DNA of 34,008 nucleotides from positions 1-34,008 of IMG/VR virus record IMGVR_UViG_3300046532_002823, one strand, 5' to 3'. Origin of the DNA: a virus. Both the position numbers and the translations under genes were made by a program. Below, piece by piece: positions 6,061 through 34,008 of the stretch (within the stretch, counting starts at the first letter, position 1; every line of letters begins with the position of its first letter). The notes beneath the pieces are model-generated. The model saw nothing but the letters and a program-made list of their open reading frames with translations, did no database searches and was not told the DNA's origin.

Positions 6061-6797
6061 AAGAAGACAGGAAGTCCGTTGATTTATTCGGTGACGGAAG
6101 GGGCTCAGTTTCTTATGTGGACCACCTCGGTAGTGACCTTACTGTTGTCAATGCTGCTAGAGTTTCTTTCGGTGATGAAAAAACAGAACTCGATACCAAA
6201 GATAAACGTCTCATTGATTACCTCATTAGACATAGACACACCTCTACGCTTGAACATAACGTTGTTACTTTCAAATTTGTTGTGCCTTTATTTGTACGTT
6301 CTCAACATCATCGCCATAGAACATGGTCGTATAATGAAATAAGCAGGCGATATACAGATAAAGGTTTAAAATTCTATGAACCAAGAGAGTTCAGGACCCA
6401 GCATGAATCAAACAGACAAGCTAGTAACTCTGAAGAACTTATAAACCCATCGATTGCTGTTTGGGATCCGTCATGCGCAAAACCAGCAATGGTTTCGATA
6501 TCAAAAGTTGTGCAGAATTTTCATACTCAATCATTGGCCCTATTCGATGACCTTATAGCTGCTGGGGTGTGTAGGGAGCAAGCTCGCGGTGTACTTCCAC
6601 AAAACTTATACACTGAATATTATGGAACTTGTAACCTCAACAATCTAGTTAAGTTTATAGACCTACGCTTACATAAAGGCGCTCAATGGGAAATCCAACA
6701 GGTTGCCAAGGCTTGTTTGGAAATTGCATCTGATCTTTTCCCTGTGACTGTTGGTTCTTACAGGGACTTGCGCTATGGAGAAAAAGAGACCACATAA
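6057..6797 (+). CDS. thyX: flavin-dependent thymidylate synthase ThyX
   Basis: This 246-residue enzyme methylates dUMP to dTMP using FAD, NADPH and methylene-tetrahydrofolate. The diagnostic ThyX motif RHR-x7-S is present at 86-96 (RHRTWSYNEIS). An earlier HTSTLEH segment (61-67) and the late GAQWEIQ segment also match the family. The start is TTG, with the stop of the previous gene overlapping as TTGA; no better in-frame ATG precedes the conserved N-terminus. It works with dUTPase (21787), thymidine kinase (22206) and NrdJ to make dTTP. A phage ThyX avoids the need for a separate dihydrofolate reductase, and none is seen here. Confidence 0.96.
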   Translation: MKEDRKSVDLFGDGRGSVSYVDHLGSDLTVVNAARVSFGDEKTELDTKDKRLIDYLIRHRHTSTLEHNVVTFKFVVPLFVRSQHHRHRTWSYNEISRRYTDKGLKFYEPREFRTQHESNRQASNSEELINPSIAVWDPSCAKPAMVSISKVVQNFHTQSLALFDDLIAAGVCREQARGVLPQNLYTEYYGTCNLNNLVKFIDLRLHKGAQWEIQQVAKACLEIASDLFPVTVGSYRDLRYGEKETT

Positions 6798-7062
6798 AAA
6801 GACGGATTTTGAGATTGGAGACCTCATAGAGCTAAACGATATGGGTATTCTGTTTGAGATATCTCACCAAAAAATAAATATAGGTGTGATCGCCAGCGAA
6901 GCATATATTTTTGTCACTACAATATACGAGAGTACATCTATCGATGATACGGTAAACACAGAATTGGAAGATTGGTGTTATGATATATTGTTTGGTGATG
7001 AACTAGTTAAGATGATGCCCGAAGAATTTTTGGAGCTAATAATTATAAAAGAGGATAAGTGA
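6775..7062 (+). CDS. small GDLV-family protein
   Basis: This 95-residue protein has FEIGDLIEL near its start, the signature of the GDLV family that is repeated at 31272-34008, followed by a strand ending in IGVIAS. The ATG at 6775 is chosen over the in-frame TTG at 6751, because the TTG start would only add residues buried in thyX. The gene overlaps thyX by 23 bases and the next gene by 4 (GTGA). A small SH3-like barrel is likely from the strand pattern; the function is unknown. Confidence 0.75.
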   Translation: MEKKRPHKKTDFEIGDLIELNDMGILFEISHQKINIGVIASEAYIFVTTIYESTSIDDTVNTELEDWCYDILFGDELVKMMPEEFLELIIIKEDK

Positions 7063-10269: not shown

Positions 10270-10595
10270 ATATTATATTAACTCCAGAGGCTATTGTTAA
10301 TATTAAAAATCTTCAGAAAGAATATAATGCTGTAGGGAAAGGGTTGAGATTTGGGCTTTCCGAAAAGGGATGCTCGGGATATAAGTATATTTTAGAATTT
10401 GAAGATAAACCGATGGCGGATGACATGGTTTTAAAATTTGACGAAATAGTTATCTATGTAAGCCGCTCTCATTTTGAAAAGCTTAAGGGATCTATAATTG
10501 GTTGGAAGGATACTTTGATGGAATCTGGATTTGATATTGACAACCCACAAGCAAGACAACCATGCGGTTGTGGCGAGAGCATAAACTTTATTTAG
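10266..10595 (+). CDS. A-type iron-sulfur carrier protein (IscA/ErpA/SufA family)
   Basis: This 109-residue protein has the three conserved cysteines of the family: C36 in EKGCSGYKY, and C100 and C102 in PCGCGESI near the end. The length matches the usual 105-120 residues. A-type carriers bind Fe or Fe-S clusters and hand them to apo-proteins in the cytosol. It sits between a Cys-cluster protein and an IscU-type scaffold, with a 4-base overlap upstream, so both Fe-S proteins should be made together. No cysteine desulfurase (IscS) is present; sulfur would come from the host enzyme. Confidence 0.92.
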   Translation: MNIILTPEAIVNIKNLQKEYNAVGKGLRFGLSEKGCSGYKYILEFEDKPMADDMVLKFDEIVIYVSRSHFEKLKGSIIGWKDTLMESGFDIDNPQARQPCGCGESINFI

Positions 10596-10603
10596 GAGAT
10601 AAA

Positions 10604-10987
10604 ATGTATAGTAAAAAAGTAATTAAACACTTCGAAGACCCACAAAATGTGGGCTCTATGGATACAAGCGATCCCTCTGTTGGAACGGGAATTGTGGGTG
10701 CCCCTGCATGTGGGGATGTGATGAAACTTCAACTAAAGATCAGCGATGATGGAATTATTGAAGATGCCAAATTCAAGACATTTGGTTGTGGTTCTGCCAT
10801 TGCTTCCAGTTCTTATGTCACAACGTTAATAAAAGGCAGAACAATTGAAGAAGCAAAAGAAGTTAGAAATATAGACATAGCAGCAGAATTAGAGTTGCCA
10901 CCAGTAAAAATACATTGTTCAGTGCTAGCCGAAGACGCTATCAAGGCAGCAATTAGAGATTATCAAAACAAAAGAACCAAGGAGTAA
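10604..10987 (+). CDS. IscU/NifU-type Fe-S cluster scaffold
   Basis: This 127-residue protein has the scaffold set C36 (APACGDV), D38, C62 (FGCGSAIASSS) and C105 (KIHCSVLAEDAI). It also has the LPPVK motif (98-102), which in IscU is the binding site for the Hsp70 HscA. IscU assembles 2Fe-2S clusters with IscS and passes them on with chaperone help. The ATG at 10604 is chosen because AGGAGA precedes it and the N-terminus matches IscU; an in-frame upstream ATG at 10562 would lie inside iscA. The retained LPPVK suggests it can use the host Hsp70 or HscA system. Confidence 0.93.
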   Translation: MYSKKVIKHFEDPQNVGSMDTSDPSVGTGIVGAPACGDVMKLQLKISDDGIIEDAKFKTFGCGSAIASSSYVTTLIKGRTIEEAKEVRNIDIAAELELPPVKIHCSVLAEDAIKAAIRDYQNKRTKE

Positions 10988-13235: not shown

Positions 13236-13433
13236 ATGATAGATGTATATAGAAAAAACGTTGGAAAGACCTTTCAGGTGCGCGAGACGTTTGGTATAAT
13301 TACTAAAGGGTTGCGGCTCTATTGTATATCTGAAAATGATGAGAGTATTTTCTGTGTCGCCTCAGAAGATGTGTGCGGAGTAAACCATGTTAGGTTATCT
13401 AAAGTTCACTTAACTAAATTAATAGAGCTATAG
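13236..13433 (+). CDS. small unknown protein
   Basis: The product has 65 residues and alternating strands: VGKTFQVRETFGIITKGLRLYCI and FCVASEDVC. It looks like a small beta-barrel, perhaps a distant GDLV relative, but it lacks the motif. AGGAG precedes the ATG. It abuts the next gene, whose GTG start overlaps its TAG stop by one base. Confidence 0.68.
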   Translation: MIDVYRKNVGKTFQVRETFGIITKGLRLYCISENDESIFCVASEDVCGVNHVRLSKVHLTKLIEL

Positions 13434-13726
13434 TGACAGAGTTTGTTAAGCTACCAGATGGTTGTCCTGAACCTAACACTAGATTTAATGTGGGAGACTT
13501 AGTAAGATGTCTTATCGATCCGCTTTATTTATCAGAATCAGTATTTGACCCCGTTAACCACGCTAAAGGAATTGGGGTGGTTACTAAACTACTTTTTTTT
13601 AAACGCACAACTGCCCGAACACTCTCAGATACTATTTGTGAAGTGGAGATCTTTTGGTTGTCAACTAGTCTTACATCCTATCACTTGGATAAATATGTTA
13701 ACAAACTTAAAATAAAAGATATTTGA
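13433..13726 (+). CDS. GDLV-family protein
   Basis: The product has 97 residues and starts at GTG directly at the stop of the previous gene. FNVGDLVRC at about 18-26 is the family signature, followed by GIGVVTKLLFF and a strand with CEVEIFWLS, as in the shorter members near the window end. The 17-residue N-terminal extension and the final charged helix are extra. It is followed by the promoter of the IMPDH-like gene. Confidence 0.72.
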   Translation: MTEFVKLPDGCPEPNTRFNVGDLVRCLIDPLYLSESVFDPVNHAKGIGVVTKLLFFKRTTARTLSDTICEVEIFWLSTSLTSYHLDKYVNKLKIKDI

Positions 13727-13767: not shown

Positions 13768-14784
13768 ATGTATATTAAAGATACTGTAACTTTTGAGGAT
13801 GTATTGTTAAGACCGAGATATAGCTCTGTGCAATCTCGGACAGAAATTAATTTAAGCAGTGCTATGAGCATAAAGCATAGCCTAAAACTACCCATTATCT
13901 CCAGCCCGATGGATACAATTTCAGAATTTCCCATGGCCGCAGCAATGGATTTGGCTGGTGGGATGTCCATCATCCATAGATATAACTCTATAAGCGAACA
14001 GTGCAGACATATAAAACAACTACCAGCAGGTGCCATGGTCGGAGCAGCAATAGGTATGACAGGCGATTATGTTGATAGAGCTTGCGCTTTATGGGATTCT
14101 GGCTGTCGTATACTCTGTATAGATGTAGCTCACGGTCACCATGAGTTGATGAAGCACTCTCTCAAAACATTAAGAACCACTTTCGGTACAGAAATAACGA
14201 TTATCGCTGGTAACGTAGCGACAAAAGAGGGCTTTGATGATTTATCTGACTGGGGAGCGGACGCTGTTCGTGTCGGTATTGGCGGGGGTTCTATCTGCTC
14301 AACGAGAATTAAAACAGGGCATGGGATCCCGACATTACAATCAATTATAGACTGTTCCAAATCCGACAGGTCAACAGCTTTAATCGCTGACGGTGGGATT
14401 AAAACAAGCGGAGACATAGTGAAAGCTTTGGCTGCGGGGGCTGATTTTGTTATGGTCGGGTCGCTCCTCGCCGGTACAGATGAAACACCCGGCAAAGCAT
14501 TTTTTGATATGGACACAGGATCAAGGCGAAAGGTGTATAGGGGGATGGCCTCTAAAGAGGCTCAGATTGATTGGAGAGGACATACCTCTTCTGTTGAGGG
14601 GGTAACCTCGTCTGTGCCGATGAAAGGTTCTGTATCAGAGGTTTTAAATGATTTAGAGCGAGGCGTCCGCAGTGGACTTTCCTATTCTGGGGCACGAAAT
14701 ATTAGGGAGCTTCAAGCTTTTGCCACTTTTATAAGGCAAACTTCTGCTGGAGCTACGGAAAGCTCAACTCACATATTAGCTTAA
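13768..14784 (+). CDS. IMP dehydrogenase / GMP reductase family enzyme without CBS domains
   Basis: This 338-residue TIM-barrel enzyme has the family marks: FEDVLLRPRYSS at the start, SSPMDTISE, GNVATKEG, and the active loop VGIGGGSICSTR with catalytic C177, then ADGGIKTSGD and the phosphate site MVGSLLAG. The ~120-residue CBS pair of normal IMPDH is absent, so the length fits GMP reductase or a trimmed IMPDH. The C-terminus (VPMKGSVSE, GVRSGLSYSGA, SAGATESSTH) looks more like IMPDH to me. Either way it acts on the IMP/XMP/GMP branch of purine supply. It has its own promoter and AGGAGG site. Confidence 0.88.
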   Translation: MYIKDTVTFEDVLLRPRYSSVQSRTEINLSSAMSIKHSLKLPIISSPMDTISEFPMAAAMDLAGGMSIIHRYNSISEQCRHIKQLPAGAMVGAAIGMTGDYVDRACALWDSGCRILCIDVAHGHHELMKHSLKTLRTTFGTEITIIAGNVATKEGFDDLSDWGADAVRVGIGGGSICSTRIKTGHGIPTLQSIIDCSKSDRSTALIADGGIKTSGDIVKALAAGADFVMVGSLLAGTDETPGKAFFDMDTGSRRKVYRGMASKEAQIDWRGHTSSVEGVTSSVPMKGSVSEVLNDLERGVRSGLSYSGARNIRELQAFATFIRQTSAGATESSTHILA

Positions 14785-15519: not shown

Positions 15520-16470
15520 ATGTTATCTATGATATTCGGTGCGGTTGGTTTCTTGTTGGCTGCTTTTGCTGTTATAGGAAATGATAGCGCTCAAACACTT
15601 GGAACTTTTATTAGTTCTAACAAGAAGAAAACTGATTGGCGTTTGATGTGGGTGTTCACCTCAGTTATATTGGGTGCCACCCTGATGTACGGGTGGGGGC
15701 AAGGTGATATAGCGTTCGGGAGATTAAATAAAATTCCTCTACCCGAACAATTCCAATGGTATCATGCCGCTGCTCCAATGCTATTGCTAGGTCTCACTCG
15801 CTTTGGAGTTCCTGTCTCAACAACTTTGCTTACTTTAAGCGCGTTCTCAAGTGGGCTGGTGTTGGAGAAAATCATTATGAAGTCAGCACTTGGTTATGCT
15901 GTTGCAGCCTTGGCTGCTTATTCTATTTGGATGGTACTCACTCGCTTCTTTAACGAGAAGAGCCCTGTAAAAGAAGACCACAAGAGATACTGGACAATAG
16001 CCCAGTGGTGTTCAACAGGATTCCTATGGCACATGTGGCTGTCCCATGACATAGCAAATATCTTTGTCTACCTGCCGAGAGAAGGAGTCTCACTACCAGC
16101 TATGCTTGGGATCATTGGTATCCTTGTGATTGGCCTCGCTCATCTCTTCTATACAGAAGGTGGTAAGATTCAAGAGATAGTTTTATCCAAAAGTGGCACA
16201 AGGTTTATCCGGTCTGCCTGTCTAATTGATTTGTTTTACGCTCTTGTTTTGTGGTACTTCAAAGTATATAACGATATACCTATGAGCACAACGTGGGTGT
16301 TCATTGGGTTGCTTGCTGGCCGCGAGTTAGCTGTCTACCGCACATTCAACAGAGACAAAAAAATAGAAGTAATCTTTCCTATGCTTGTCAAAGACTTCTT
16401 AAAAATTATGTTGGGCCTTGCTCTCTCTGTTGCAGTTGTGTCTGGTGTCATCTACTTTGATTCAATGTAA
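15520..16470 (+). CDS. PiT-like inorganic phosphate permease
   Basis: This 316-residue protein has about eight to nine membrane spans and two inverted half-repeats. Each half shows a PiT family mark: GNDSAQTLGTF (20-30) and SHDIANIFVYL (175-185), which keep the Asn-Asp and Asp-x-Ala-Asn features. Each is followed by a Ser-Thr turn, GVPVSTTL (96-103) and NDIPMSTTW (251-259). PiT carriers bring in phosphate with Na+ or H+ in the inner membrane. It is shorter than bacterial PitA (about 500 residues), lacking the long central loop. The site TAAGGAGA precedes the ATG. A phage-borne permease would raise phosphate supply for DNA synthesis. The family call rests on motif layout, so some doubt remains. 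Confidence 0.75.
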   Translation: MLSMIFGAVGFLLAAFAVIGNDSAQTLGTFISSNKKKTDWRLMWVFTSVILGATLMYGWGQGDIAFGRLNKIPLPEQFQWYHAAAPMLLLGLTRFGVPVSTTLLTLSAFSSGLVLEKIIMKSALGYAVAALAAYSIWMVLTRFFNEKSPVKEDHKRYWTIAQWCSTGFLWHMWLSHDIANIFVYLPREGVSLPAMLGIIGILVIGLAHLFYTEGGKIQEIVLSKSGTRFIRSACLIDLFYALVLWYFKVYNDIPMSTTWVFIGLLAGRELAVYRTFNRDKKIEVIFPMLVKDFLKIMLGLALSVAVVSGVIYFDSM

Positions 16471-16587: not shown

Positions 16588-17061
16588 ATGACTAACATCA
16601 TAAGCGAATACTGGGCTAAAAAAGTAAACCTTGGAGGAAAAGGGGGGAAGGAGAAATTGCTTAAAAGGGTTTTTCTTAAATCTCAAAGGATTAACGCACC
16701 ACTGTTTGATATCATAGACGCGAACGGGGGATTAAGAGAACTTAAGAAGCAGGCGAATGTCCAATGGTTTGATATAGGAAAGTACCATCTCTTATGCGAC
16801 CAAGACAAGAGTATCCTAATGACTTTTATTATGCATGAGAAGGGAAAGATCCAAAAGATAATGGAGATTGAACTCGGTAGAATGCTGGATTTGCTTCGTG
16901 GTAATGAAAAGTATCGCCAATGGGGTTGGACAAATAGTAATATTGAAATGTGCTGGATGCAAAAAGTTAAATACCCAACCCAACAGGCTAAAGTAAAGGT
17001 TGAAGTCAAAAAGTTCTTCGCTGAAAACGAAGAAGAGTTTACAATTTTATGGAGAAGGTAA
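16588..17061 (+). CDS. unknown protein, 157 residues
   Basis: The ATG at 16588 with AGGAGA upstream is preferred; an earlier in-frame start at 16549 lies inside the promoter. The product is mixed helix and strand with a basic, Gly-rich stretch (NLGGKGGKEKLLKRVFLKSQR, about 14-34), a Trp-rich middle (QWGWTNSNIEMCWM) and a basic C-terminal helix. No domain was recognised. Its stop overlaps the next ATG (TAATG). Confidence 0.72.
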   Translation: MTNIISEYWAKKVNLGGKGGKEKLLKRVFLKSQRINAPLFDIIDANGGLRELKKQANVQWFDIGKYHLLCDQDKSILMTFIMHEKGKIQKIMEIELGRMLDLLRGNEKYRQWGWTNSNIEMCWMQKVKYPTQQAKVKVEVKKFFAENEEEFTILWRR

Positions 17062-17222
17062 TGCCTAAAGTAGGAGATCTTGTACAAGTCGGAGAATCTA
17101 TTGGTATTATTCTGAGAACAGATGAAAGAACCATTCCAACTGTTTGCTATGTATATCGCATGCATGGAGTAGGGATTTCGGTACTATGCTTGACACAAGA
17201 CGATTTTAAAATTATAGCTTGA
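17061..17222 (+). CDS. GDLV-family miniprotein
   Basis: The product has 53 residues: MPKVGDLVQVGESIGIIL, then strands with VCYVYRMHG and a C-terminal QDDFKII. This matches the layout of the repeats near the window end (GDLV, GII, an aromatic strand and an acidic-hydrophobic tail). GGAGAAGG precedes the ATG. The stop TGA forms part of the next -35 box, as in several later family members. Confidence 0.75.
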   Translation: MPKVGDLVQVGESIGIILRTDERTIPTVCYVYRMHGVGISVLCLTQDDFKIIA

Positions 17223-17524: not shown

Positions 17525-20500
17525 ATGAAGTTTGTAAATTTACACGCACATTCGGGAGTTGGTTCCCCGTTTGATGGGTTTGGATATCCGCAGGAACATA
17601 TGGACTATGCTTTTGACAACGGATGCGAAGCTCTTGCTTTAACTGACCACGGTAATATGAATGGACTTGCTTACCAAGTTCTTCACGCTAATAAGATGAA
17701 GAAAGAAGGCAAAGAATTTAAGCCTATCTTTGGTGTAGAAGCTTATTTCATCCCATCGGTTACCGAATGGAAAAAAGAACTTGAAAAACACAAAGCCGAT
17801 AAGAAAATGGCTAAGAAGATTAATAAGGAACAATCAGGAACAAACATTGAAGATGAAGGCGAGTCAAAACGAGGTGGCCTTAGTACTATTAATCGTACAC
17901 GGCATCTGGTCTTGCTTGCAATGAATGAGAAGGGACTCCAGAATATATTTAAGCTGGTTTCCGAATCTTACCACGGAGATTATTTCTACCGTAAGCCTCG
18001 CATTGACTTTGACCTTTTAAAGCGTCATAATGAGGGTGTAATAGCACTCTCTGCTTGTTTAGGTGGTATCTATGCTGGGTGCTACTGGAGTAAGCGAGAA
18101 GAGGGTTCTGAGGCGGTTATGGATAGTATGCGAGATATAACCCGGAAGATGATTGATACCTTTGGCGATCGTTGGTATGGAGAATTACAATGGAACAATG
18201 TACCAGAACAGCACGAACTGAATCGCTACATCATAGAAATACATAAAGAGTTTGGTATCAAGCTTGTCTCCACCGCTGACTCACACTATCCCACGCCTGA
18301 TGCTTGGAAGGATAGGGAGTTGTATAAGCGGCTCGGTTGGCTTGGTAAAGGTAAACCTGAGTGGTTAGACATGGAGCTTCCTTTATCTGTGCAAGAGATG
18401 GAATATGAACTCTATCCAAAGAATGCAGATCAAATGTGGGAATCATATGTTAATTATAGCAGAGACTGCAAGGTTGAATACGATGACGAAGTAGTCAGAG
18501 ACAGCATCGAAGAAAGCTATGACATTGCCTTTAATCGTATTGACAACTTCCTCCCTGATAATACTGTTAGACTACCTGACTTCGTTGTACCTGCTGGCTA
18601 TACCGAAGATGGGTTCCTAGAACATCTTACCTTCCAAGGCTTAACCAGCATAAAAGGGAGGTTTAGCAAAGAGTATGAAGAGCGACTTCGCCATGAACTC
18701 AAGGTTATAGCTGACCGAGGGTTCTCTAAATACTTTCTTACAATGAAAGCTATATCGGATAAAACAAATGAAACACAACTCTCAGGACCCGGTCGAGGCT
18801 CTGCGGCTGGTAGCCTTGTTGCTTATGCTCTTGGTATCACTGCTATTGATCCACTTCGCTACGGTCTTTTATTCTCACGTTTCCTACGCTCGGACGCTAC
18901 TGATTATCCTGACATTGATTATGATGTGTCGGATCCTATGGTTCTAAAGGAAGCTCTTATCAAGGAGTGGGGAAGCTCCACGGTAGTTCCTATCTCTAAC
19001 TGGAACACACTACAACTACGTTCTCTACTCAAAGATATTTCTAAGTTCTATGAGATAGAGTTCCAAGAAGTAAATATTGTTACAAGCCGTATGTTAGCTG
19101 AGGCAACCCCGATTGCCAAGAAAGCACATGGCATCAAGGCGGGGGTTTATACTCCAACCTTTGAGGAAGTAATTAAATACTCTGAAACCTTGCAGAAGTT
19201 CTTTAAAAAATATCCTCATGTTAAAGAGCATGTTGTATCTTTACAGGGTTCTTATCGTTCTTGTTCCCGTCATGCTGGTGGTGTTGTAGTTGGTGAAGAC
19301 CTAGATAAATATATGCCTCTGATCTCCTCTAAAGGAGTCAGACAGACCCCATGGTCAGAAGGGCAGAACGTCAGACAGTTGGAGCCGATGGGTTTTATTA
19401 AATTTGATATACTTGGTTTGTCAACTCTTCGTATGATAGATGACTGTATTAGAAAAATACTTCAAAGACATTACAATAATCCTGATCCAAGCTTCGAGGA
19501 AGTGAAACAATTTTATGATGAGAACTTACACCCAGATAAAATCGATCTTGACGACCAGCAAGTATTCAAGAACGTCTTCCATAACGAGAAATGGATTGGG
19601 ATTTTCCAGTTCACTGAGAATGGCGCTCAACGGTTTGCGTCACAGGTCAAGCCGAAAAGTATTATCGACCTTGCTGCTATTACTTCAATTTACCGTCCGG
19701 GGCCACTGTCTGCTGGTGTTGACAAAGCTTATATAAAGGCTGTTGAGGAGCCTCACAATGTTAAATACCTGAACAATGATGTCAAGAGAGTGACGAAGGA
19801 AACCCACGGGTTTCTTATATTCCAAGAACAAATCGCCCAACTAGTTTACGACCTTGGTGAGGGGATTACCATGGATGAAGCCAACCTACTTCGTAAGATT
19901 CTAACCAAAAAAGGAACCGGCAAAGGTCATGAAGTTAAAGCGGAGATACATGAGAAGTTCATCAGAGGGTGTTCCAACAAAGGCATCGCAATCAGGAAGT
20001 CAGAGCAGTTGTGGCAAACCTTTGAATATTTTTCTGGTTATGGTTTTAATAAATCTCATGCTGTCTCTTACTCTATTATTTCATATCAATGCGCTTGGTT
20101 GTGTAATTATTATACTGTCGAGTGGACGTCAGCTTTCTTGGATAAAGAACCAGAGACACGTAAAGAAAAAGCTATAAACCTTGCTAAACAACATGGTTTT
20201 AATATACAGCCGCTAAGTATCAACCACTCTGGTAAAATTTGGAATATAATTGGTGATAAAGATTTAGTTGCTCCCCTAACAACCATCAAGGGTCTCGGAG
20301 AAAAAGCAATCGAACAAATTATAACTAACCGCCCATTCAATACTGTGGAGGAGCTTTTGTTTAATGATAATATAGTTTATAGTAAGTTCAATAAGAAGGC
20401 ACTCGATGTATTAGCTCGGTGCGGGGCACTGGACGATTTGATAGACGAACGTTTTACTGGGGATAAGCACTTCTGGACAGCAGTGTGTCTTGATAGACCG

Positions 20501-20935
20501 CGAAGTAAAAAGAAACTCGATGATAATATAGAAACTTACAGACCGGAAGAGTCCTTTTCTGAAGAGGAAAAGATAGAATTTATAGCCAACCTAACTGGTA
20601 TCTTTCCTCTTTCATTAGTGATGGTGCCGCCTGTCCAGAATAGACTAGAAGAACTGTGTATCCCTCCGATCTCTGAATATGATGCCGACCTGCAAGTATG
20701 TTGGTGTATACCAAGGAAGATAGAGAAGAAGAAGTCGAGAAATGGTAAATACTATTATGTGATTACAGCAATAGACTCGAACTCTGCTGAAACAAGACTA
20801 CGATGTTGGTCTATAGATTCGGAGAAAGATCATATTCATTTGAATAGGCCATATATGGTTAAGCCTCGCTACTCTCTAGAGTGGGGGTTTTCTACTTACG
20901 GAAGAGTTAATAATTCATGGGTGTTGTTGGGATAA
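17525..20935 (+). CDS. dnaE: DNA polymerase III alpha subunit (DnaE type)
   Basis: This 1136-residue C-family polymerase is the replicative DNA polymerase of the phage. The N-terminal PHP domain has its metal ligands in place: H7 and H9 (NLHAHS), D41-H42, E72, C178 (SACLGG), D252 and H254 (ADSHY). In the palm, GPGRGSAAGS (421-430), catalytic D463 and D465 (PDIDYD) and third acid D628 (KFDILGL) are present. FQEQIAQL and GYGFNKSHAVSY mark the fingers. A helix-hairpin-helix (KGLGEKAIEQI) and a C-terminal OB-like part follow. It is full length compared with E. coli DnaE (1160). No clamp, clamp loader or DnaQ gene is seen here. An intact PHP site could provide proofreading. Confidence 0.97.
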   Translation: MKFVNLHAHSGVGSPFDGFGYPQEHMDYAFDNGCEALALTDHGNMNGLAYQVLHANKMKKEGKEFKPIFGVEAYFIPSVTEWKKELEKHKADKKMAKKINKEQSGTNIEDEGESKRGGLSTINRTRHLVLLAMNEKGLQNIFKLVSESYHGDYFYRKPRIDFDLLKRHNEGVIALSACLGGIYAGCYWSKREEGSEAVMDSMRDITRKMIDTFGDRWYGELQWNNVPEQHELNRYIIEIHKEFGIKLVSTADSHYPTPDAWKDRELYKRLGWLGKGKPEWLDMELPLSVQEMEYELYPKNADQMWESYVNYSRDCKVEYDDEVVRDSIEESYDIAFNRIDNFLPDNTVRLPDFVVPAGYTEDGFLEHLTFQGLTSIKGRFSKEYEERLRHELKVIADRGFSKYFLTMKAISDKTNETQLSGPGRGSAAGSLVAYALGITAIDPLRYGLLFSRFLRSDATDYPDIDYDVSDPMVLKEALIKEWGSSTVVPISNWNTLQLRSLLKDISKFYEIEFQEVNIVTSRMLAEATPIAKKAHGIKAGVYTPTFEEVIKYSETLQKFFKKYPHVKEHVVSLQGSYRSCSRHAGGVVVGEDLDKYMPLISSKGVRQTPWSEGQNVRQLEPMGFIKFDILGLSTLRMIDDCIRKILQRHYNNPDPSFEEVKQFYDENLHPDKIDLDDQQVFKNVFHNEKWIGIFQFTENGAQRFASQVKPKSIIDLAAITSIYRPGPLSAGVDKAYIKAVEEPHNVKYLNNDVKRVTKETHGFLIFQEQIAQLVYDLGEGITMDEANLLRKILTKKGTGKGHEVKAEIHEKFIRGCSNKGIAIRKSEQLWQTFEYFSGYGFNKSHAVSYSIISYQCAWLCNYYTVEWTSAFLDKEPETRKEKAINLAKQHGFNIQPLSINHSGKIWNIIGDKDLVAPLTTIKGLGEKAIEQIITNRPFNTVEELLFNDNIVYSKFNKKALDVLARCGALDDLIDERFTGDKHFWTAVCLDRPRSKKKLDDNIETYRPEESFSEEEKIEFIANLTGIFPLSLVMVPPVQNRLEELCIPPISEYDADLQVCWCIPRKIEKKKSRNGKYYYVITAIDSNSAETRLRCWSIDSEKDHIHLNRPYMVKPRYSLEWGFSTYGRVNNSWVLLG

Positions 20936-26943: not shown

Positions 26944-28515
26944 GTGAATAAACACTATGAAAACGGACTCTCATTGAGTCAAAAATTATTGAAGGGAGTG
27001 GATGTACTGGCAGATAATGTTGGCTCGACTCTCGGTCCGAAAGGGCGAAACGTGATTCTATATCACAAAGACCAGAACGTCCCTGTTATTACCAAAGACG
27101 GTGTGACAGTTGCACAGTTTATTGAACTGGAAGACCCAATCGAGAACGTGGGGGCACAAATTGTAAAGCAAGCTGCTGAACAAACAGCTAGCAAAGCAGG
27201 TGATGGGACAACCACATCGACTGTGTTAGCGAGAGCAATCATCCAAGGAGCCCAAAAGTACCTTGCTGCTGGAGCTTCTCCTATAGAGTTGAAGCGTGGC
27301 ATGGATATTGCATGTAGTATAATTGTTAAGAACCTTGAAGCCCTTGCTCAACCCGTGAGATCAAAGAAAGATATAGAACATATTGCAACTATCTCTGCTA
27401 ACAACGATATATCAATTGGCACACTTATTGCAGAGGCTGTTGATTCTGTTGGTAAAGATGGTGCGGTAATTATTGAGGAGGCTAATTCGTTAGAGACTTC
27501 GCTTGATTTGATTGAGGGTTTCCGATTCGATTCTGGCTATTGCGCCACTGCTTTCATTAACAACGAGAGGTCTGGGACGGTTGAATATGACAATCCGTTG
27601 ATACTTGTCGCTGACGATAAGGTTGAATATGTTGAACAGATACTTCCCTCACTTGAATTGGCTGCGAGGGAGACAAGACCATTGGTCATCATAGCTAACG
27701 AGGTCGTAGAGCAAGCCCTCGCTGCCTTAATTATGAACACCAAACGCGGTTCATTAAAGGTATGTGCCGTCAAAGCTCCAAGGTATGGGGAAGAACGCAG
27801 GAAGTTTATGAGGGATATATGTCTCTCAACCGGAGCAACGTATATTACCAGAGAAGATGGAGTGCAGATGAAAGATGTTCGTCTCCCACACTTCGGACAG
27901 TCAAAGAAGATTAGCATATCCAAAGGACTCACTACGATCGTCGGTGGTCGCGGGAGTCAAGAAAGAATTGATGAACAGATTGAGAGCCTAAAGATTGAAA
28001 TCCAACAGACAGAAAGCCTAAAAGAGTGTGAAAGGATACAAGAAAGGATCACACGTTTAGCCTCTGGCATTGGTGTAATTAGAGTAGGAGCAGCAACTGA
28101 AATAGAAATGATTGAGAAGAAGCACCGAGTAGAAGATGCTCTTGAGGCAGTCAGATCAGCGCAAGAACAAGGCGTTGTTGTTGGTGGTGGTTCTGCGCTC
28201 TTACATGCCTCTGTTGGGCACTTTCTCTCCACAGATAGACAAGACCAAGAGCTTGGCTCTAAGGTCGTTTTTGAGGCGGTTACTGCGCCATTAAGACAGA
28301 TGTGTTTGAACGCAGGTGAATCGCCTGATATAATTGTCAGGTTAGTCTCAGAAAGTTTGCCTAATCAAGCGTATGACTTCGTTGAACGAGATGTGGTTGA
28401 TGCCATTGAGATGGGGTTACTCGACCCCGTTAAGGTAACAATCAGTGCATTAACTAATGCTGTGTCCGTTGCCTCAATTTTGATAACAACAAACTACGCC
28501 ATTGTTAAGGACTAG
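26944..28515 (+). CDS. groL: chaperonin GroEL (Hsp60)
   Basis: This 523-residue protein has VGSTLGPKGRNV (26-37), DGTTTSTVLAR (87-97, same numbering as E. coli), an apical domain, GAATEIEMIEKKHRVEDAL with the ATPase Asp, and GVVVGGGSALLHA. The family forms a 14-subunit ring that folds proteins with GroES. The C-terminal GGM tail of most bacterial GroEL is missing. The start is GTG at 26944, because GGAGGA lies just before it. An upstream in-frame ATG at 26911 is inside the promoter. Phage GroEL genes are uncommon; the GroES-like gene at 5058 may be its partner. Confidence 0.97.
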   Translation: MNKHYENGLSLSQKLLKGVDVLADNVGSTLGPKGRNVILYHKDQNVPVITKDGVTVAQFIELEDPIENVGAQIVKQAAEQTASKAGDGTTTSTVLARAIIQGAQKYLAAGASPIELKRGMDIACSIIVKNLEALAQPVRSKKDIEHIATISANNDISIGTLIAEAVDSVGKDGAVIIEEANSLETSLDLIEGFRFDSGYCATAFINNERSGTVEYDNPLILVADDKVEYVEQILPSLELAARETRPLVIIANEVVEQALAALIMNTKRGSLKVCAVKAPRYGEERRKFMRDICLSTGATYITREDGVQMKDVRLPHFGQSKKISISKGLTTIVGGRGSQERIDEQIESLKIEIQQTESLKECERIQERITRLASGIGVIRVGAATEIEMIEKKHRVEDALEAVRSAQEQGVVVGGGSALLHASVGHFLSTDRQDQELGSKVVFEAVTAPLRQMCLNAGESPDIIVRLVSESLPNQAYDFVERDVVDAIEMGLLDPVKVTISALTNAVSVASILITTNYAIVKD

Positions 28516-28829: not shown

Positions 28830-29210
28830 ATGAAAGTGAAAATAACACGGAACGTCGATATAGAGGACGTTCCTTCTCTCGCGTCAGAGATGCTCGGCCC
28901 TTCTGAGCTTGAACTCGATGATGTTAGGGGCTGGTTGAGCAACTTGGTCAGTGAATTACATAATAATAAAACGACAGCCACCATGGCTTTACATCAGATA
29001 CAAAGAATAAAATACTCTCTGGAAATATGCCAAGGGGCCTTGGTTGACGTTGAGAGTATTATGCAAGGGCTAGCAGATTTTGAGAGACAACAAGCGACTA
29101 CTACTCCCCGGCCCCCGGCCCCCAGCGAGGCTGAAAATACAGGTAGGGTTGAAGGAGTCTCGGAAGAAATGAAACCGGAGGTGAGTGATGACCTCGATCT
29201 CCCTTTTTAG
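28830..29210 (+). CDS. unknown protein with SSB-like C-terminal tail
   Basis: In this 126-residue protein, the first 85 residues are strand then helices (VKITRNVDIEDVPSLASEML; DVRGWLSNLVSEL; MALHQIQRIKYSLEICQGALVDVESIM). A Pro/Ala/Glu-rich flexible linker leads to the end, SDDLDLPF. Bacterial SSB proteins end in a similar acidic tip (DDDIPF), which binds many replication enzymes. No OB fold is visible, so this is not SSB itself but could compete for or recruit SSB partners. AGGAGA precedes the ATG. It overlaps the next gene by 23 bases. Confidence 0.7.
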   Translation: MKVKITRNVDIEDVPSLASEMLGPSELELDDVRGWLSNLVSELHNNKTTATMALHQIQRIKYSLEICQGALVDVESIMQGLADFERQQATTTPRPPAPSEAENTGRVEGVSEEMKPEVSDDLDLPF

Positions 29211-29475
29211 ACCGGGCTCTTTGGTTTGGCTCCCAGCCCAAGCCAAGCGTTTTCGATGGGAAAGTAACCTACAACTGGAAATTTTCCCAAAAGATTATAG
29301 TATAACTAAAATTCCCCTTATCGGGATACTGAAAGGATATACTAATCGTGGAGACTGCGAGGTATTATTCCGAGATGGGATATGGGATGTAGAAGCAAAA
29401 GATTTATCCACGTATGTGGACACATTAGGACAAAGGGAGAGAAATGATAGAATTAATACAAATCAAAAGACTTAA
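29188..29475 (+). CDS. distant GDLV-family protein
   Basis: The product has 95 residues. LFRPGSLVWLPA near 6-17 replaces GDLV by GSLV, followed by IGILKGYTNRGDCEVLFRDG and a DVEAKDL end, the same order as the short GDLV proteins. An SH3-like barrel is inferred. GGAGGTG lies 4 bases before the ATG at 29188. The gene shares sequence with both neighbours in other frames. Function unknown. Confidence 0.65.
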   Translation: MTSISLFRPGSLVWLPAQAKRFRWESNLQLEIFPKDYSITKIPLIGILKGYTNRGDCEVLFRDGIWDVEAKDLSTYVDTLGQRERNDRINTNQKT

Positions 29476-30003: not shown

Positions 30004-30693
30004 ATGTTATGGGGATTTTTATTATTGTTATCATGCCAGACAGCAATAATGACGGATGGAAAAACTACAACTGTTGAGTTTTTCAGAACAGCATCCCATA
30101 GCATAGGGGTCAAAAATGCAATTAACTCTTCTGTTATTGTCCACTGTTTCAAAGAGAGTGAGTTTGTTAGTAAAGGATCAGGTAATTACTTTAAGATTGG
30201 TGCTAAAAAGTTTATCTTAACTGCCAACCATGTTATAGCCGGTTGTGATGAAGTACAATTAAAGAATAGGCTTGCAAGCGTAGTGACAGCTAAGATAATT
30301 CATTCTGACAAAGAAAGAGACATAGCAATCTTGAGAGCAGAACAAGAACTGTATAATGTTGACGCGATAGAATACCAACCGAGAGATCCTGATGTTGGGG
30401 AAAGGGTTTACTTTATGGGGCATCCCGATGAGGTAGATTTTTTTCTCTTTGAGGGTTTAGTTTCGCTCAAGGAAACGAAAGACTTTTTCTTACACTCAAC
30501 AGCTTGGAGTGGTGTCTCTGGTGCTGTTGTATTCGGCCAAACAGGTAGAGTATATGGTATAACCAAGGCGGTTAAGGTATCCTTTAGCCCAGCCACAGGG
30601 TTCCCAAGATTATTAGAAGATATAGTATTAGCCTCCAAGATTAACCATCTTACGAGGAAAAAAATAAGAGAACTTATGGATGAAGAAAGATGA
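30004..30693 (+). CDS. lipoprotein trypsin-like serine protease
   Basis: The 229-residue product starts MLWGFLLLLSC, a short signal with lipobox and C11 as the acylated residue. The chymotrypsin-fold triad is visible: H76 (ILTANHVIAG), D106 (ERDIAIL) and S172 (AWSGVSGAVVFG). There is no PDZ domain, so it is a single-domain DegP-core-like protease, probably held on a membrane facing the periplasm. The substrate is unknown; it may process envelope or virion proteins. The ribosome binding site is inside a hairpin. The last 14 bases overlap the next gene. Confidence 0.88.
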   Translation: MLWGFLLLLSCQTAIMTDGKTTTVEFFRTASHSIGVKNAINSSVIVHCFKESEFVSKGSGNYFKIGAKKFILTANHVIAGCDEVQLKNRLASVVTAKIIHSDKERDIAILRAEQELYNVDAIEYQPRDPDVGERVYFMGHPDEVDFFLFEGLVSLKETKDFFLHSTAWSGVSGAVVFGQTGRVYGITKAVKVSFSPATGFPRLLEDIVLASKINHLTRKKIRELMDEER

Positions 30694-30913
30694 AATTTTA
30701 TACGTTGGGACCCTTGTGGAGGATTTGGGCAAGATAGGCATTATTGTTCGGATTATACAATCGGGTACTATGGACATAGACCTCCCGCTTATTAAGTGGA
30801 GGGTCAACTACGAGATTTATTATCAAGACGGAGTTGTCACAGTTATGGCAGAGTCCACCCTTAAGCGATTGGTGGCGGATGGGAAGGTAAGAGTAATTTC
30901 GCTTCCGTCTTAA
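30680..30913 (+). CDS. small SH3-like protein, distant GDLV relative
   Basis: The product has 77 residues. ILYVGTLVEDLGKIGIIVRI near 6-25 follows the GDLV pattern (GTLV, then GIIV), then WRVNYEIYYQDG and a VMAESTLKRLV end. The ATG overlaps the protease by 14 bases. Function unknown. Confidence 0.65.
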   Translation: MKKDEILYVGTLVEDLGKIGIIVRIIQSGTMDIDLPLIKWRVNYEIYYQDGVVTVMAESTLKRLVADGKVRVISLPS

Positions 30914-31221: not shown

Positions 31222-31250
31222 TTGACAAAATTCGCCATTCATGTTATATT
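31222..31250 (+). promoter_or_regulatory. sigma70-like promoter at the head of the GDLV array
   Basis: TTGACA at 31222-31227 and TATATT at 31245-31250, spacer 17 bp. The start region carries TTGTAACAG (31253-31261), also seen in the dUTPase leader. Confidence 0.88.
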
Positions 31251-31271: not shown

Positions 31272-31469
31272 ATGAAATTTAGTATAGGAGACTTAGTTGA
31301 TTACTGTACGAGCCAAAACCACATTTATATGGGAGTTATACTGAAGAAAGAGTGGAGAGACGACCTTGGTTCGGCTTGGTACTACAAAGTTTATTTTTTG
31401 CAGGAAGAGGATGAGGCATGGATTGAAGAAGAATTTATTAGAACCTATGGAGGATTCAATGGCGTATAA
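31272..31469 (+). CDS. GDLV-family miniprotein
   Basis: The product has 65 residues: MKFSIGDLVDYC, then YMGVILKKEW, WYYKVYFLQEEDEAW and a final EEFIRTYGG. It keeps the family order of GDLV, a GVI strand, an aromatic strand and an acidic-hydrophobic end. It is the first gene of the promoter unit at 31222 and overlaps the next by 11 bases. Confidence 0.78.
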   Translation: MKFSIGDLVDYCTSQNHIYMGVILKKEWRDDLGSAWYYKVYFLQEEDEAWIEEEFIRTYGGFNGV

Positions 31470-31767
31470 ATACAATTGGGATTCTGATGAGAAACCCCCC
31501 GAAAAAGAAATGATTGCCTACCTGACTACCGTGGTCCCCGACCTTGTTGAGACTGCTTTTTTAGTCGTAGGCTCAAGCGACGATGGTGGTAGGCATATTG
31601 TAATGATGGCTGAGTGGGACGAGGACGAGCAGTCCCCATGGGCAGACGGCTCTGGGTATGTAGATAGTAGAGGTTGGCGTGTGATGCGTGTGACCGTACC
31701 TAACGGATACTTAAAAGCTATGTTTAACCCCGATGGAACGAAGAGTAAACCCAAGGAGAGAGACTAA
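31459..31767 (+). CDS. unknown acidic protein inside the GDLV array
   Basis: The product has 102 residues. It has MIAYLTTVVPDLVETAFLVVGSS, an acidic EWDEDEQ segment and SRGWRVMRVTVPNGYLKAMF, mostly strands. It does not carry the GDLV motif. GGAGG lies before the ATG at 31459, which is preferred over an upstream in-frame start at 31366 that lies wholly in the previous gene. Stop and next ATG overlap. Confidence 0.7.
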   Translation: MAYKYNWDSDEKPPEKEMIAYLTTVVPDLVETAFLVVGSSDDGGRHIVMMAEWDEDEQSPWADGSGYVDSRGWRVMRVTVPNGYLKAMFNPDGTKSKPKERD

Positions 31768-31952
31768 TGGATGTAGGCGATCTCGTTATGTGGGATGAAT
31801 ACGGGGAGACACAATATGTACCTTACCTTAATCATTATATGGGTGTGATCATAAACATCATAGACATATTTGCCCGTGTATATGTGTTTGCAGATGCGTC
31901 TGATCATTTAGTAAAGCTGAATATATTGGAGAAAGTAAATGAACATCGGTGA
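31767..31952 (+). CDS. GDLV-family miniprotein
   Basis: The product has 61 residues: MDVGDLVMWDEYG, then HYMGVIINIID, ARVYVFADASDHLV and the end KLNILEKVN. Strand order matches the family. AAGGAGAG precedes the ATG. It overlaps the next family member by 14 bases. Confidence 0.78.
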   Translation: MDVGDLVMWDEYGETQYVPYLNHYMGVIINIIDIFARVYVFADASDHLVKLNILEKVNEHR

Positions 31953-32109
31953 TTTAGTCAAAGTACCAGATAAATTTGGTAAAAGACATTATGGCGTTAT
32001 CACGGACACAATTATTATGGACGAAACTCTTTATGTGGTAACCTTCTTCGATGGTAGTGATATAGTTATCCACCCAAGTCGGGTGGAGGTAATAAATGAA
32101 GATAGGTGA
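31939..32109 (+). CDS. GDLV-family miniprotein
   Basis: The product has 56 residues: MNIGDLVKVPDKFG, then HYGVITDTII, LYVVTFFDGSDIV and the end HPSRVEVIN. TTGGAGAA precedes the ATG. It overlaps the family members on both sides by 14 bases, and the GGTGATTT codons of the motif are shared in register with the neighbours. Confidence 0.78.
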   Translation: MNIGDLVKVPDKFGKRHYGVITDTIIMDETLYVVTFFDGSDIVIHPSRVEVINEDR

Positions 32110-32278
32110 TTTGGTATGGTGCAGAGAAAACTTTAGAGAGAGCATACCAAAGTTTCTTGCGATTGTCGTAGGAAATGACAAACCAAATACTGGTTATTTT
32201 TTAGTTTACGTCTGTTCTTCGGGGAGTATTCATAAATATTATTCCTTTGAATTGAAAAAAGTTCACAGAAGCACTTGA
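32096..32278 (+). CDS. GDLV-family miniprotein
   Basis: The product has 60 residues: MKIGDLVWCRENF, then KFLAIVVGND, YFLVYVCSSGSIHKYY and the end FELKKVHRS. GGAGG precedes the ATG. Its TGA stop is part of the next promoter's -35 box. Confidence 0.78.
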   Translation: MKIGDLVWCRENFRESIPKFLAIVVGNDKPNTGYFLVYVCSSGSIHKYYSFELKKVHRST

Positions 32279-32303
32279 CAAATTAAGTTTGGCGGGATAT
32301 ATT
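32275..32303 (+). promoter_or_regulatory. sigma70-like promoter
   Basis: TTGACA at 32275-32280 overlaps the stop of the gene before it; TATATT is at 32298-32303, spacer 17 bp. Confidence 0.86.
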
Positions 32304-32331
32304 ATTAGTGAACACAACATAGGAGGTTGCA

Positions 32332-32556
32332 ATGGTGACTAATGAACAAATGAATGAAATAGAAAGAAAGGCAGTAGGGATAGCAGAAGGCTGGCTTGAA
32401 TCCCCAGAAGGAGTTGACGAGACAGAGGCCCTTCGGGTCGCTTGGCAGCATCTCATAGACACAGGGGCCTGTTGGAGACTGCAAGGCTGGTTTGGCCGGA
32501 CTGCTCAAAGCTTGTTGGAGCAAAAGTTTGTGTTGCCCTACCCCCGAAAGGGGTGA
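32332..32556 (+). CDS. small conserved phage protein
   Basis: The product has 74 residues and is helical: IERKAVGIAEGWLESPEGVDETEALRVAWQHL, then DTGACWRLQGWFGRTAQSLLEQ. I recall the WQ-LIDTG-WQLQGWFGR pattern from other phages, with no function assigned. AGGAGG precedes the ATG. It is not a GDLV protein and heads its own promoter unit. Confidence 0.72.
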   Translation: MVTNEQMNEIERKAVGIAEGWLESPEGVDETEALRVAWQHLIDTGACWRLQGWFGRTAQSLLEQKFVLPYPRKG

Positions 32557-32559
32557 GGT

Positions 32560-32730
32560 ATGCCATACTTAAAACAGAGTGACATTGAAGTAGGTGTACT
32601 TGTATTATATGAAGAACATATATGTATTATTACAAACTCGCGAACTAATATGACTGATTGGGTTGAGATAATGCTACCCTGTGGCGAAAAACTACAAGCA
32701 AACAGATCGTACCTTCGGAGGGTAAGATGA
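32560..32730 (+). CDS. distant GDLV-family miniprotein
   Basis: The product has 56 residues: SDIEVGVLVLYEEHICII replaces GDLV by GVLV, then WVEIMLPCGEKL and the end RSYLRRVR. GGGGTGAGG precedes the ATG, partly in a CCCC/GGGG hairpin at 32541-32553. It overlaps the next gene by 4 bases (ATGA). Confidence 0.65.
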   Translation: MPYLKQSDIEVGVLVLYEEHICIITNSRTNMTDWVEIMLPCGEKLQANRSYLRRVR

Positions 32731-32945
32731 AAGTAGGTGATTTAATAAAATGTAAAGGCGAAAACAAAAAGAACGAGGATCAGTTTGGTGTCGTTGTTAG
32801 GTTGTCGGTGGCCCCTAAACCAGTGCCCTCAACGGCCTTTTCGCCCCGCCCTACAATCTGGGTAGAGATACAGTGGCACGATGGACACCGGACATGGGAA
32901 GATATGGAAGCATCTTTGGAACATAACTTTGAGGTGGTAGCATGA
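32727..32945 (+). CDS. GDLV-family miniprotein
   Basis: The product has 72 residues: MKVGDLIKCKGE, then QFGVVVRLSV, a proline-rich insert, IWVEIQWHDGHRTWED and the end HNFEVVA. The insert makes it longer than its sisters. GGAGG precedes the ATG, and the stop overlaps the next ATG. Confidence 0.78.
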   Translation: MKVGDLIKCKGENKKNEDQFGVVVRLSVAPKPVPSTAFSPRPTIWVEIQWHDGHRTWEDMEASLEHNFEVVA

Positions 32946-33175
32946 ACTGTTTACTTGGTGCGTTGGCAATCCAAAGACGACTTGGTGGCAAGATTGATTG
33001 GAGAGCAGGGTGGAAACAAGAAGGGTGGTACAGCTTCCTTGGGAGCCCTTGGGGTCACTTCCGAGTGATCTTACCCAACGGAACCATCCTGTCTTACAGC
33101 CCCCACAATAAAGATTTATCGGTCTGGAACCAGTTTTGGTATCAAGGCTATATCAGGAGGCGAAGATGCAAATAG
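32942..33175 (+). CDS. small unknown protein inside the GDLV array
   Basis: The product has 77 residues, rich in Trp and Gly (GKIDWRAGWKQEGWYSFLG), with WGHFRVILPNGTILSY strands and a basic C-terminus (YIRRRRCK). No GDLV motif is present. It is coupled to the gene before by ATGA and overlaps the next by 10 bases. Function unknown. Confidence 0.68.
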   Translation: MNCLLGALAIQRRLGGKIDWRAGWKQEGWYSFLGSPWGHFRVILPNGTILSYSPHNKDLSVWNQFWYQGYIRRRRCK

Positions 33176-33360
33176 GTGATTTGGTAAAATTGTGCTGGAG
33201 AACCAAACAGGTCCACCATGGCATAGTATTAAAAATAAATAAAAGTTGTGGAGATTTAGCTGGTAATGTTTTAATTCAATGGGTTGGGGTTTTCAACGAC
33301 AGGACACAGGTACACTTACTCCGTGACATCCAAACCTTTCCAATAAATAAAAATACTTGA
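33166..33360 (+). CDS. GDLV-family miniprotein
   Basis: The product has 64 residues: MQIGDLVKLCWR, then HHGIVLKINK, VLIQWVGVFNDR and the end LLRDIQTFPINKNT. The ATG at 33166 follows AGGAGG; an earlier in-frame start at 33136 lies in the previous gene. The last 18 bases plus the next -35 box are part of a 22-base exact repeat with the gene ending at 33748. Confidence 0.78.
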   Translation: MQIGDLVKLCWRTKQVHHGIVLKINKSCGDLAGNVLIQWVGVFNDRTQVHLLRDIQTFPINKNT

Positions 33361-33363
33361 CAA
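33342..33363 (+). repeat. 22-base direct repeat, copy 1
   Basis: Starts AATAAATAAAAATACTTGAC and continues for two more bases. It covers the last codons (NKNT), the stop and the -35 box, and is identical to 33730-33751. Confidence 0.9.
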
Positions 33364-33384
33364 ATTTTTTGAACTTGTTATATT
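33357..33384 (+). promoter_or_regulatory. sigma70-like promoter
   Basis: TTGACA at 33357-33362 overlaps the TGA stop; TATATT is at 33379-33384, spacer 16 bp. Confidence 0.86.
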
Positions 33385-33416
33385 ACTGATAGAACATAAA
33401 AGAAATGAGGTGTCAA

Positions 33417-33578
33417 ATGCAAGTAGGTGATTTAGTAATGATAAAGCAAGGCTATCGGACCGGCAAGTTGGCCCTTGTAACCAAGGTAGACCCTCGTCCA
33501 CAAGGTATCATTCGTGTGGTCCGTGGTTGTGGGGATTGGTTTGGCTATTACAAACGAGACTTGGAGGTGATAGCATGA
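33417..33578 (+). CDS. GDLV-family miniprotein
   Basis: The product has 53 residues: MQVGDLVMIKQGY, then KLALVTKVD, IIRVVRGCGDWFGYY and the end KRDLEVIA. It is the clearest full member, with the DLEVI end. GAGGTG precedes the ATG. It overlaps the next member by 4 bases (ATGA). Confidence 0.8.
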   Translation: MQVGDLVMIKQGYRTGKLALVTKVDPRPQGIIRVVRGCGDWFGYYKRDLEVIA

Positions 33579-33748
33579 AAGTAGGTGATTTAGTTGTAGC
33601 ATCTCACTGGGGAACAGGTTATATTGGTCTTATTATATCTATACTTCCAAGCCTCAGAAATAACCAAGTGTGTAGGGTTATGGTAAATGGTAATTACTGT
33701 GTTGACCAACTGGCGCGGGACTTAGAGATAATAAATAAAAATACTTGA
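33575..33748 (+). CDS. GDLV-family miniprotein
   Basis: The product has 57 residues: MKVGDLVVASHWG, then YIGLIISIL, CRVMVNGNYCV and the end ARDLEIINKNT. GGAGGTGA precedes the ATG inside the previous gene. The NKNT end and the stop match the gene ending at 33360 base for base. Confidence 0.8.
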   Translation: MKVGDLVVASHWGTGYIGLIISILPSLRNNQVCRVMVNGNYCVDQLARDLEIINKNT

Positions 33749-33751
33749 CAA
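33730..33751 (+). repeat. 22-base direct repeat, copy 2
   Basis: Identical to 33342-33363. Both copies join the end of a GDLV gene to the next promoter. Confidence 0.9.
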
Positions 33752-33773
33752 CTGAAACCAAACAGGATACATT
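33745..33773 (+). promoter_or_regulatory. sigma70-like promoter
   Basis: TTGACA at 33745-33750 overlaps the TGA stop; TACATT is at 33768-33773, spacer 17 bp. Confidence 0.83.
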
Positions 33774-33804
33774 ATTAGCATAACCTAAACGAACGGAGAA
33801 CGAT

Positions 33805-33963
33805 ATGAAATTTGAAACAGGACAGTTAGTCATATCAGCCAAGGGCAACCTTGGAATCATCATCGCAACCATGGGCAATGGGTGGTGGTGCGACCTAATG
33901 TGGTGCAGCACAGGTTATCTTCGGCAAGGTTTCCCCTGTGCCCAACTAAGGAGGATACAATGA
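33805..33963 (+). CDS. distant GDLV-family miniprotein
   Basis: The product has 52 residues: MKFETGQLVISAKGNLGIIIATMG, then WWCDLMWCSTGYL and the end CAQLRRIQ. GQLV stands in for GDLV, with the GIII strand kept. CGGAGAA precedes the ATG. It overlaps the next gene by 4 bases. Confidence 0.72.
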   Translation: MKFETGQLVISAKGNLGIIIATMGNGWWCDLMWCSTGYLRQGFPCAQLRRIQ

Positions 33964-34008
33964 ATGTAGGAGATTTAGTTAGAAACATACACACGATGCG
34001 TGGAGGCT
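33960..34008 (+). CDS. GDLV-family miniprotein, cut by window end
   Basis: Only 16 codons are visible: MNVGDLVRNIHTMRGG. AAGGAGGA precedes the ATG. The signature shows that the array continues past the window. Confidence 0.75.
   Translation, partial: MNVGDLVRNIHTMRGG

Follow-up and report, generated by a model that had tools for sequence, protein, structure and literature searches.

A family of small KOW-like proteins joined through overlapping reading frames at the end of a marine T4-type phage record

The DNA investigated here, referred to as the window, is a 34-kb viral record (IMGVR_UViG_3300046532_002823, positions 1 to 34,008) of an uncultivated marine T4-type phage, at the end of which the genes of tiny proteins with the motif GDLV near the N-terminus form an array. 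An earlier note, made from the letters, had listed sixteen such proteins as one family. The family is real: all the listed coordinates are open, and a hidden Markov model (HMM) profile containing no window sequence misses only two of the sixteen and places 13 of the 14 recovered at E<0.01. With the exception of this leave-window-out profile (consensus MKVGDLVKHKSEPHDDGGIGIVVEVDEDDGEGYYKVLWIDGGRTTWEDEEELEVL), the profiles were trained within the same phage group. The relatives comprise 80 loci of related uncultivated phages, gathered by a scan with the window GroEL (GroEL identity 49-82%); they are mostly fragments, and several near duplicates have been removed for some counts only. The labels L010, L084 and L108 denote loci compared with the window.

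All members are encoded on the plus strand, and the E-values given with them are those of the leave-window-out profile. The array opens with a protein of 65 amino acids (aa) at 31272..31469 (E 7e-9; orthologue L010:12184), followed by members at 31767..31952 (61 aa, E 5e-6; orthologue L010:12681), 31939..32109 (56 aa, E 8e-10; orthologue L010:12853), which has 14-base overlap joints on both sides, and 32096..32278 (60 aa, E 9e-9). A divergent member at 32560..32730 (56 aa, E 0.035; orthologue L010:13677) overlaps by 4 bases the one at 32727..32945 (72 aa, E 1e-11). Further members lie at 33166..33360 (64 aa, E 3e-7), 33417..33578 (53 aa, E 5e-11), 33575..33748 (57 aa, E 3e-8; orthologue L010:14195) and 33805..33963 (52 aa, E 5e-5), the last being divergent, with TGQLV. 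At 33960..34008 the start of another member, MNVGDLVRNIHT, is cut by the window end; its likely orthologue is L010:15012. Three members are isolated from the array: 6775..7062 (95 aa, E 8e-4), 13433..13726 (97 aa with a GTG start, E 4e-4) and 17061..17222 (53 aa, E 5e-5). An ATG with a good Shine-Dalgarno sequence has been found for nearly all the listed frames, the weaker start signals being those of 6775, 13433 and 30680. Two additional frames, 13236 and 32942, were tried as members and do not belong.

The two remaining proteins are stable divergent orthologues, present downstream of groEL in many relatives. The first (29188..29475, 95 aa) reaches only E 0.75 with the HMM alone, and its comparison with the core family profile gives a match at its start only; its orthologues carry GDLV, as KIGDLVHVP or ERGDLVWIP, and its model is SH3-like. 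The second (30680..30913, 77 aa, VGTLV/I, E 0.009), with orthologues in 17 hits, matches the core family with 90% probability (hhalign). A small gene of another kind lies within the array at 32332-32556 (+; AWQHLIDTG...LQGWFGRTA). Relatives of it occur in about 480 stretches of viral contigs, some from phages that lack the GDLV family, and 79 other phage loci with relatives of this gene yielded no family member at E<0.01.

The check proposed for the family, a profile search, was run on the relatives and recovers it there too. The motif [VI]GDL[VI] occurs near the N-terminus of 178 small open reading frames (ORFs) of the window and the 80 loci, all on the coding strand, compared to a single occurrence of the reversed motif. 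The iterated profile collects 299 members at E<0.01, with no match at that level among reversed sequences or on the minus strand. Members are present in 54 of 81 loci of uncultivated marine T4-type phages, with 28-29 copies in records of 62-64 kb, 31 in one of 192 kb, 22 in one of 203 kb and 37 in one of 112 kb. The longest has at most 115 aa; all are single domains, with no fusions to larger proteins. In L084 (12539-13019) a run of members has GSLV or GTLV in place of GDLV, which suggests sub-lineages inside one array. T4-type capsid and portal proteins exceed the curated cut-offs in six large records from this group (184-203 kb), where they score far lower than the proteins of T4 itself, which indicates that the group forms a remote branch among T4-type phages.

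Searches of PHROGs, Pfam, NCBIfam and PADLOC returned no credible existing family. The best PHROGs value is E 0.002, for single members, and no PHROG family is matched by more than three of the 53 members scanned. Two members match DUF1918 (PF08940, actinobacterial) weakly, with a best E of 0.023 that is below significance; this and other small SH3-like families are single-copy cellular proteins. No close cultured phage has been found for the window. In cultured phages tblastn gave no match with 33575 and only E=5 matches, in P-SSM2 and P-SSM5, with a consensus-like member; the family profile has no match in P-SSM2, T4, HTVC008M, one Flavobacterium phage and two Vibrio phages.

The SH3-like barrel proposed for the family is supported by the AlphaFold model of 33417 (predicted local distance difference test, pLDDT, 90). 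This protein is predicted to be a five-stranded SH3-like barrel with strands at residues 6-9, 18-24, 31-35, 41-45 and 49-51, the fifth being preceded by a short helical turn. Its best solved matches in Foldseek are ribosomal eS4 proteins (template modelling score 0.82-0.90, best E 2e-3). We read the matched part of eS4 as its KOW-type domain, in line with the family sequence profile, which matches eS4 at residues 174-220 and also uL24c (8.7e-5), NusG (0.0043, over the whole domain) and Spt5 (0.014). In the viral fold library the top match is the KOW protein of Streptomyces phage Gilson, followed by other phage KOW proteins. The 29188 group, modelled from an independent alignment with lower confidence (pLDDT 78), is likewise SH3/Tudor-like in Foldseek; the search of solved structures with this group returned nothing. 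With the KOW domain of NusG, Spt5, uL24 and eS4 (PF00467) the family thus shares the predicted barrel and the profile matches, and its strand-2 glycine (73% conserved, not invariant) aligns with the NusG glycine in the G-V/I of KOW. In contrast to KOW domains, the members are stand-alone proteins of 50-75 aa with GDLV and LEV ends, highly variable loops and up to 37 copies per record. Against the Pfam KOW model the best member scores 19.0 bits (cut-off 22.3) and only one of 53 matches at all; since no scanned member passes the cut-off, the family is termed KOW-like and not KOW.

The frames are maintained as proteins by purifying selection. The pooled ratio of non-synonymous to synonymous substitution rates (dN/dS) is 0.20 over 109 orthologue pairs of 50-97% identity, and between the window and L010 it is 0.16 for 31272, 0.37 for 31767 and 0.23 for 31939, a fourth pair being saturated. 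Orthologue pairs are non-independent observations. A value near 1, which had been named as the sign of non-coding frames, is therefore not found. That the frames are chance or decaying ORFs, as their very short length and the low mutual identity of the copies might suggest, is extremely improbable: about 300 profile matches against none reversed and none on the other strand, a dN/dS of 0.2 and a confident fold refute it.

Selection is similar over the whole protein, with a dN/dS of 0.16 in framework columns and 0.19 in variable columns, and residues in variable columns are 67% identical between orthologues compared to 8% between random paralogues. Variable columns conserved between orthologues, divergent between paralogues and low in dN/dS indicate that the copies are old and that each maintains its own surface. 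These private conserved surfaces are the strongest evidence that the copies do different things, and they bear out the suggestion of a separate role for each copy. The copies had also been said to differ greatly, as if diversified. The divergence is real and lies between old paralogues; rapid ongoing change is not seen, and relaxed or positive selection as its source is rejected, on average, by the orthologue dN/dS and the column split.

The calculated isoelectric point (pI) of the window members spans 4.3-9.7; half of the members have a pI <6, and net charge averages -1.4. Among them 31939 is acidic and 33417 basic. These values bear on the view that all members are regulators binding nucleic acid or RNA polymerase, comparable to NusG, the KOW of uL24 and T4 MotB, with copies differing in sequence preference or dose. 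The nearest matches by fold and by profile, which are KOW domains from ribosomal and elongation proteins, and the phage KOW proteins of the viral fold library speak for such a single shared function; the acidic character of so many members and the lack of any conserved basic or other surface residue beyond the structural framework speak against it, and we regard it as unlikely.

The head-to-tail overlap of neighbouring members has been confirmed, and it has set lengths: 10 bases in 72 pairs, 4 in 34 and 14 in 20. Each length arises from particular codons of the next gene: (i) the 4-base overlap from ATGA; (ii) the 10-base overlap from the V/I-G codons (GTA or ATA, then GGN), which read TAG in another frame; (iii) the 14-base overlap from the G-D codons GGT-GAT, which give TGA. 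The start codons of the next gene thereby provide the stop of the previous one, and because the overlaps are set by these codons, tails such as CK, CE, NEDR and SESR are out-of-frame reads of the next start. The joint consensus over 120 members is TTGGAGGTAnTATGCAAGTAGGTGATTTAGTAA; an example with a 4-base overlap, at 33560..33597 (+), has the LEV codons TTGGAGGTG and the start ATGAAAGTAGGTGATTTAGT.

At this joint the next gene takes its Shine-Dalgarno sequence from the LEV codons of the gene before it. The glutamate codon of LEV is GAG rather than GAA in a ratio of 89:8 where a gene follows and 5:12 where none does, and tails of the form LE[VA] are carried by 63 of 178 joined members compared to 8 of 119 unjoined. 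The ‘DLEVI’ end described in the earlier note is thus real, but not as a purely protein feature, being in part a ribosome-binding site and largely the Shine-Dalgarno sequence of the next gene. The codon of valine 3 is also biased, GTA being used in 70 of 90 cases compared to 25% inside genes (p=5e-24); in contrast, the conserved GIV motif of the interior has codons that follow the background, and starts of non-family genes have no GTA bias. Unjoined members favour GTA too (11 of 16), which indicates that the supply of a stop codon cannot be the only reason for this preference.

Repeated DNA tied to genes is known from other phages. Arbiol et al. (2010, GBE, doi 10.1093/gbe/evq006, cited in PMC4177764) reportedly described mobile regulatory cassettes (PeSL) of T4-type phages, which too are repeated regulatory DNA tied to the shuffling of accessory genes. 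PeSL cassettes are promoter and stem-loop elements between unrelated genes. In contrast to PeSL cassettes, the repeat described here sits in the overlap of paralogous coding frames. The start-associated sequences of cluster K mycobacteriophages are likewise a block of DNA that recurs where many genes begin (PMC3203893). However, they lie upstream of genes from different families and are not made from the conserved coding end of the previous gene.

Relatives differ by the gain or loss of whole units, and L084 shows close copies in tandem. By a simple gene caller of our own, 8 of 66 family orthologues are out of order compared to 0 of 67 for non-family genes. The right edges of shared DNA blocks fall within 30 bases after a start in 49% of cases (11% expected), a pile-up that partly arises because alignments naturally extend through the conserved joint, and such edges of high-scoring segment pairs are non-independent observations. 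Between paralogues of the same genome, exact shared tracts of at least 12 bases have been found in 95 of 470 joints, compared to none of 470 interiors. Joint likeness is 66.5% between genomes and 68.7% within, so that homogenisation within a genome is a slight effect only, and synonymous sites of the joint turn over between orthologues while staying biased.

Recombination at joints is possible, and selection on translation initiation explains their conservation equally well. An evenly balanced judgement falls to the view that the joint is a translational operator or an initiation-region preference under selection and not a recombination site, and hence concerns translation and not spread. The near-equal likeness of joints between and within genomes, the turnover of start synonymous sites under a constant bias and the preference for GTA in unjoined members agree with it; the shared tracts, the edges concentrated at joints and the permutation of family genes stand against it, although all three can also come from general gene-boundary exchange. 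It is quite unlikely, in our estimation, that the array is a cassette system, in which the joint (ribosome-binding site, start and previous stop) would also be a homology tract, units would be duplicated, deleted and swapped with their coupling intact, and the phage would maintain and re-assort a repertoire of single-domain binders that keep one framework and vary in their loops, each of them fitted to a host factor.

The promoters that had been claimed for the array are present as near-consensus sigma70-like sites on the plus strand, identified by a consensus scan: TTGACA-17-TATATT at 31222..31250 and 32275..32303 and TTGACA-16-TATATT at 33357..33384 (11/12 each), and TTGACA-17-TACATT at 33745..33773 (10/12). 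On the coding strand such sites occur at 1.06 per kb in arrays, about three times the density outside (0.32), and on the other strand at 0.16 per kb.

An expanded array of stand-alone KOW-type SH3-like barrels, coupled in translation, begins at the window end, and there is, in our judgement, an even chance that it serves the phage as a host-adaptation kit. Host-like promoters would drive its early transcription, and the variable loops of each barrel would bind one host partner, the candidates being RNA polymerase or elongation factors, the ribosome, nucleic acid or another host protein; units would be added or lost as hosts change. The KOW relationship would make RNA polymerase, elongation factors, the ribosome and nucleic acid natural partners. 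An analogy is offered by T4 MotB, an early-region protein with a predicted N-terminal KOW domain and a C-terminal OB-fold, which binds to DNA and changes the expression of host genes (PMC7827196), showing that a KOW-containing early protein of the same superfamily can act on host DNA. MotB differs from the family in being a single-copy protein of two domains. The accessory position, the private conserved surfaces and the mixed charge fit a range of partners better than a single nucleic-acid function common to all members.

Several points weigh against this host-adaptation kit. Early expression is suggested by promoter-like sequences only, and the common fold, itself a prediction, is no proof of a binding role. 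Two records of the group have no member at all and some relatives have few, which indicates that the family is dispensable in the group.

The earlier note had also suggested that the members are perhaps host-takeover factors or inhibitors of host defences. The searches gave no direct sign of either: the best PADLOC match is E 0.03 in one of 53 members (PADLOC holds mainly defence models and not inhibitor models), and no known inhibitor, defence-related or otherwise diagnostic gene has been recognised beside the arrays. Defence inhibition is possible, with no specific support found. A bank of inhibitors, each barrel blocking or decoying a different anti-phage system, would fit the accessory position, and the gain and loss of units among close relatives together with private conserved surfaces would suit an arms race with changing defences. 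Given the PADLOC result, the neighbouring genes and the ordinary purifying selection on orthologues, which show no sign of fast change, such a bank is unlikely.

The remainder of the window encodes a complete transfer-messenger RNA gene with the tag ANNNYHFESIRLAA (9390-9835, +; ARAGORN; Rfam RF00023, 93 bits) and an alpha subunit of DNA polymerase III of the bacterial type (PHP, DNA_pol3_alpha, finger; 17525-20935, +), which is not usual among T4-type phages. Two iron-sulphur assembly proteins, one IscA-like and one NifU/IscU-like, adjoin at 10266-10987 (+), and a protein with an IMP dehydrogenase / GMP reductase domain lies at 13768-14784 (+). A ribonucleotide reductase with a B12-type insertion domain (3089), ThyX (6057) and a ClpP-like protease (24334) have also been identified. 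A hydrophobic protein of 316 aa (15520-16470, +) resembles an inorganic phosphate permease by eye and has no Pfam match at 1e-5. GroES-like Cpn10 (5058-5342, +) and GroEL (26944-28515, +) are encoded far apart in the same phage. The chromosomal GroEL of a WOR-3 metagenome-assembled genome (L108 10001-11566) is 58% identical to the phage GroEL and may reflect a host link, a transfer or a binning artefact; as the sole genome-contig match it is unusable as evidence of the host.

The joint is a case of a conserved protein end that doubles as a disguised ribosome-binding site, and can thereby mislead motif-based annotation. The small early proteins of phages are mostly orphans and have been studied singly. 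In this family a single recognisable scaffold recurs as many as 37 times within a phage record, with a measurable split between framework and variable positions and with orthologues that can be compared, so that a repertoire of scaffolded host-factor binders becomes testable.

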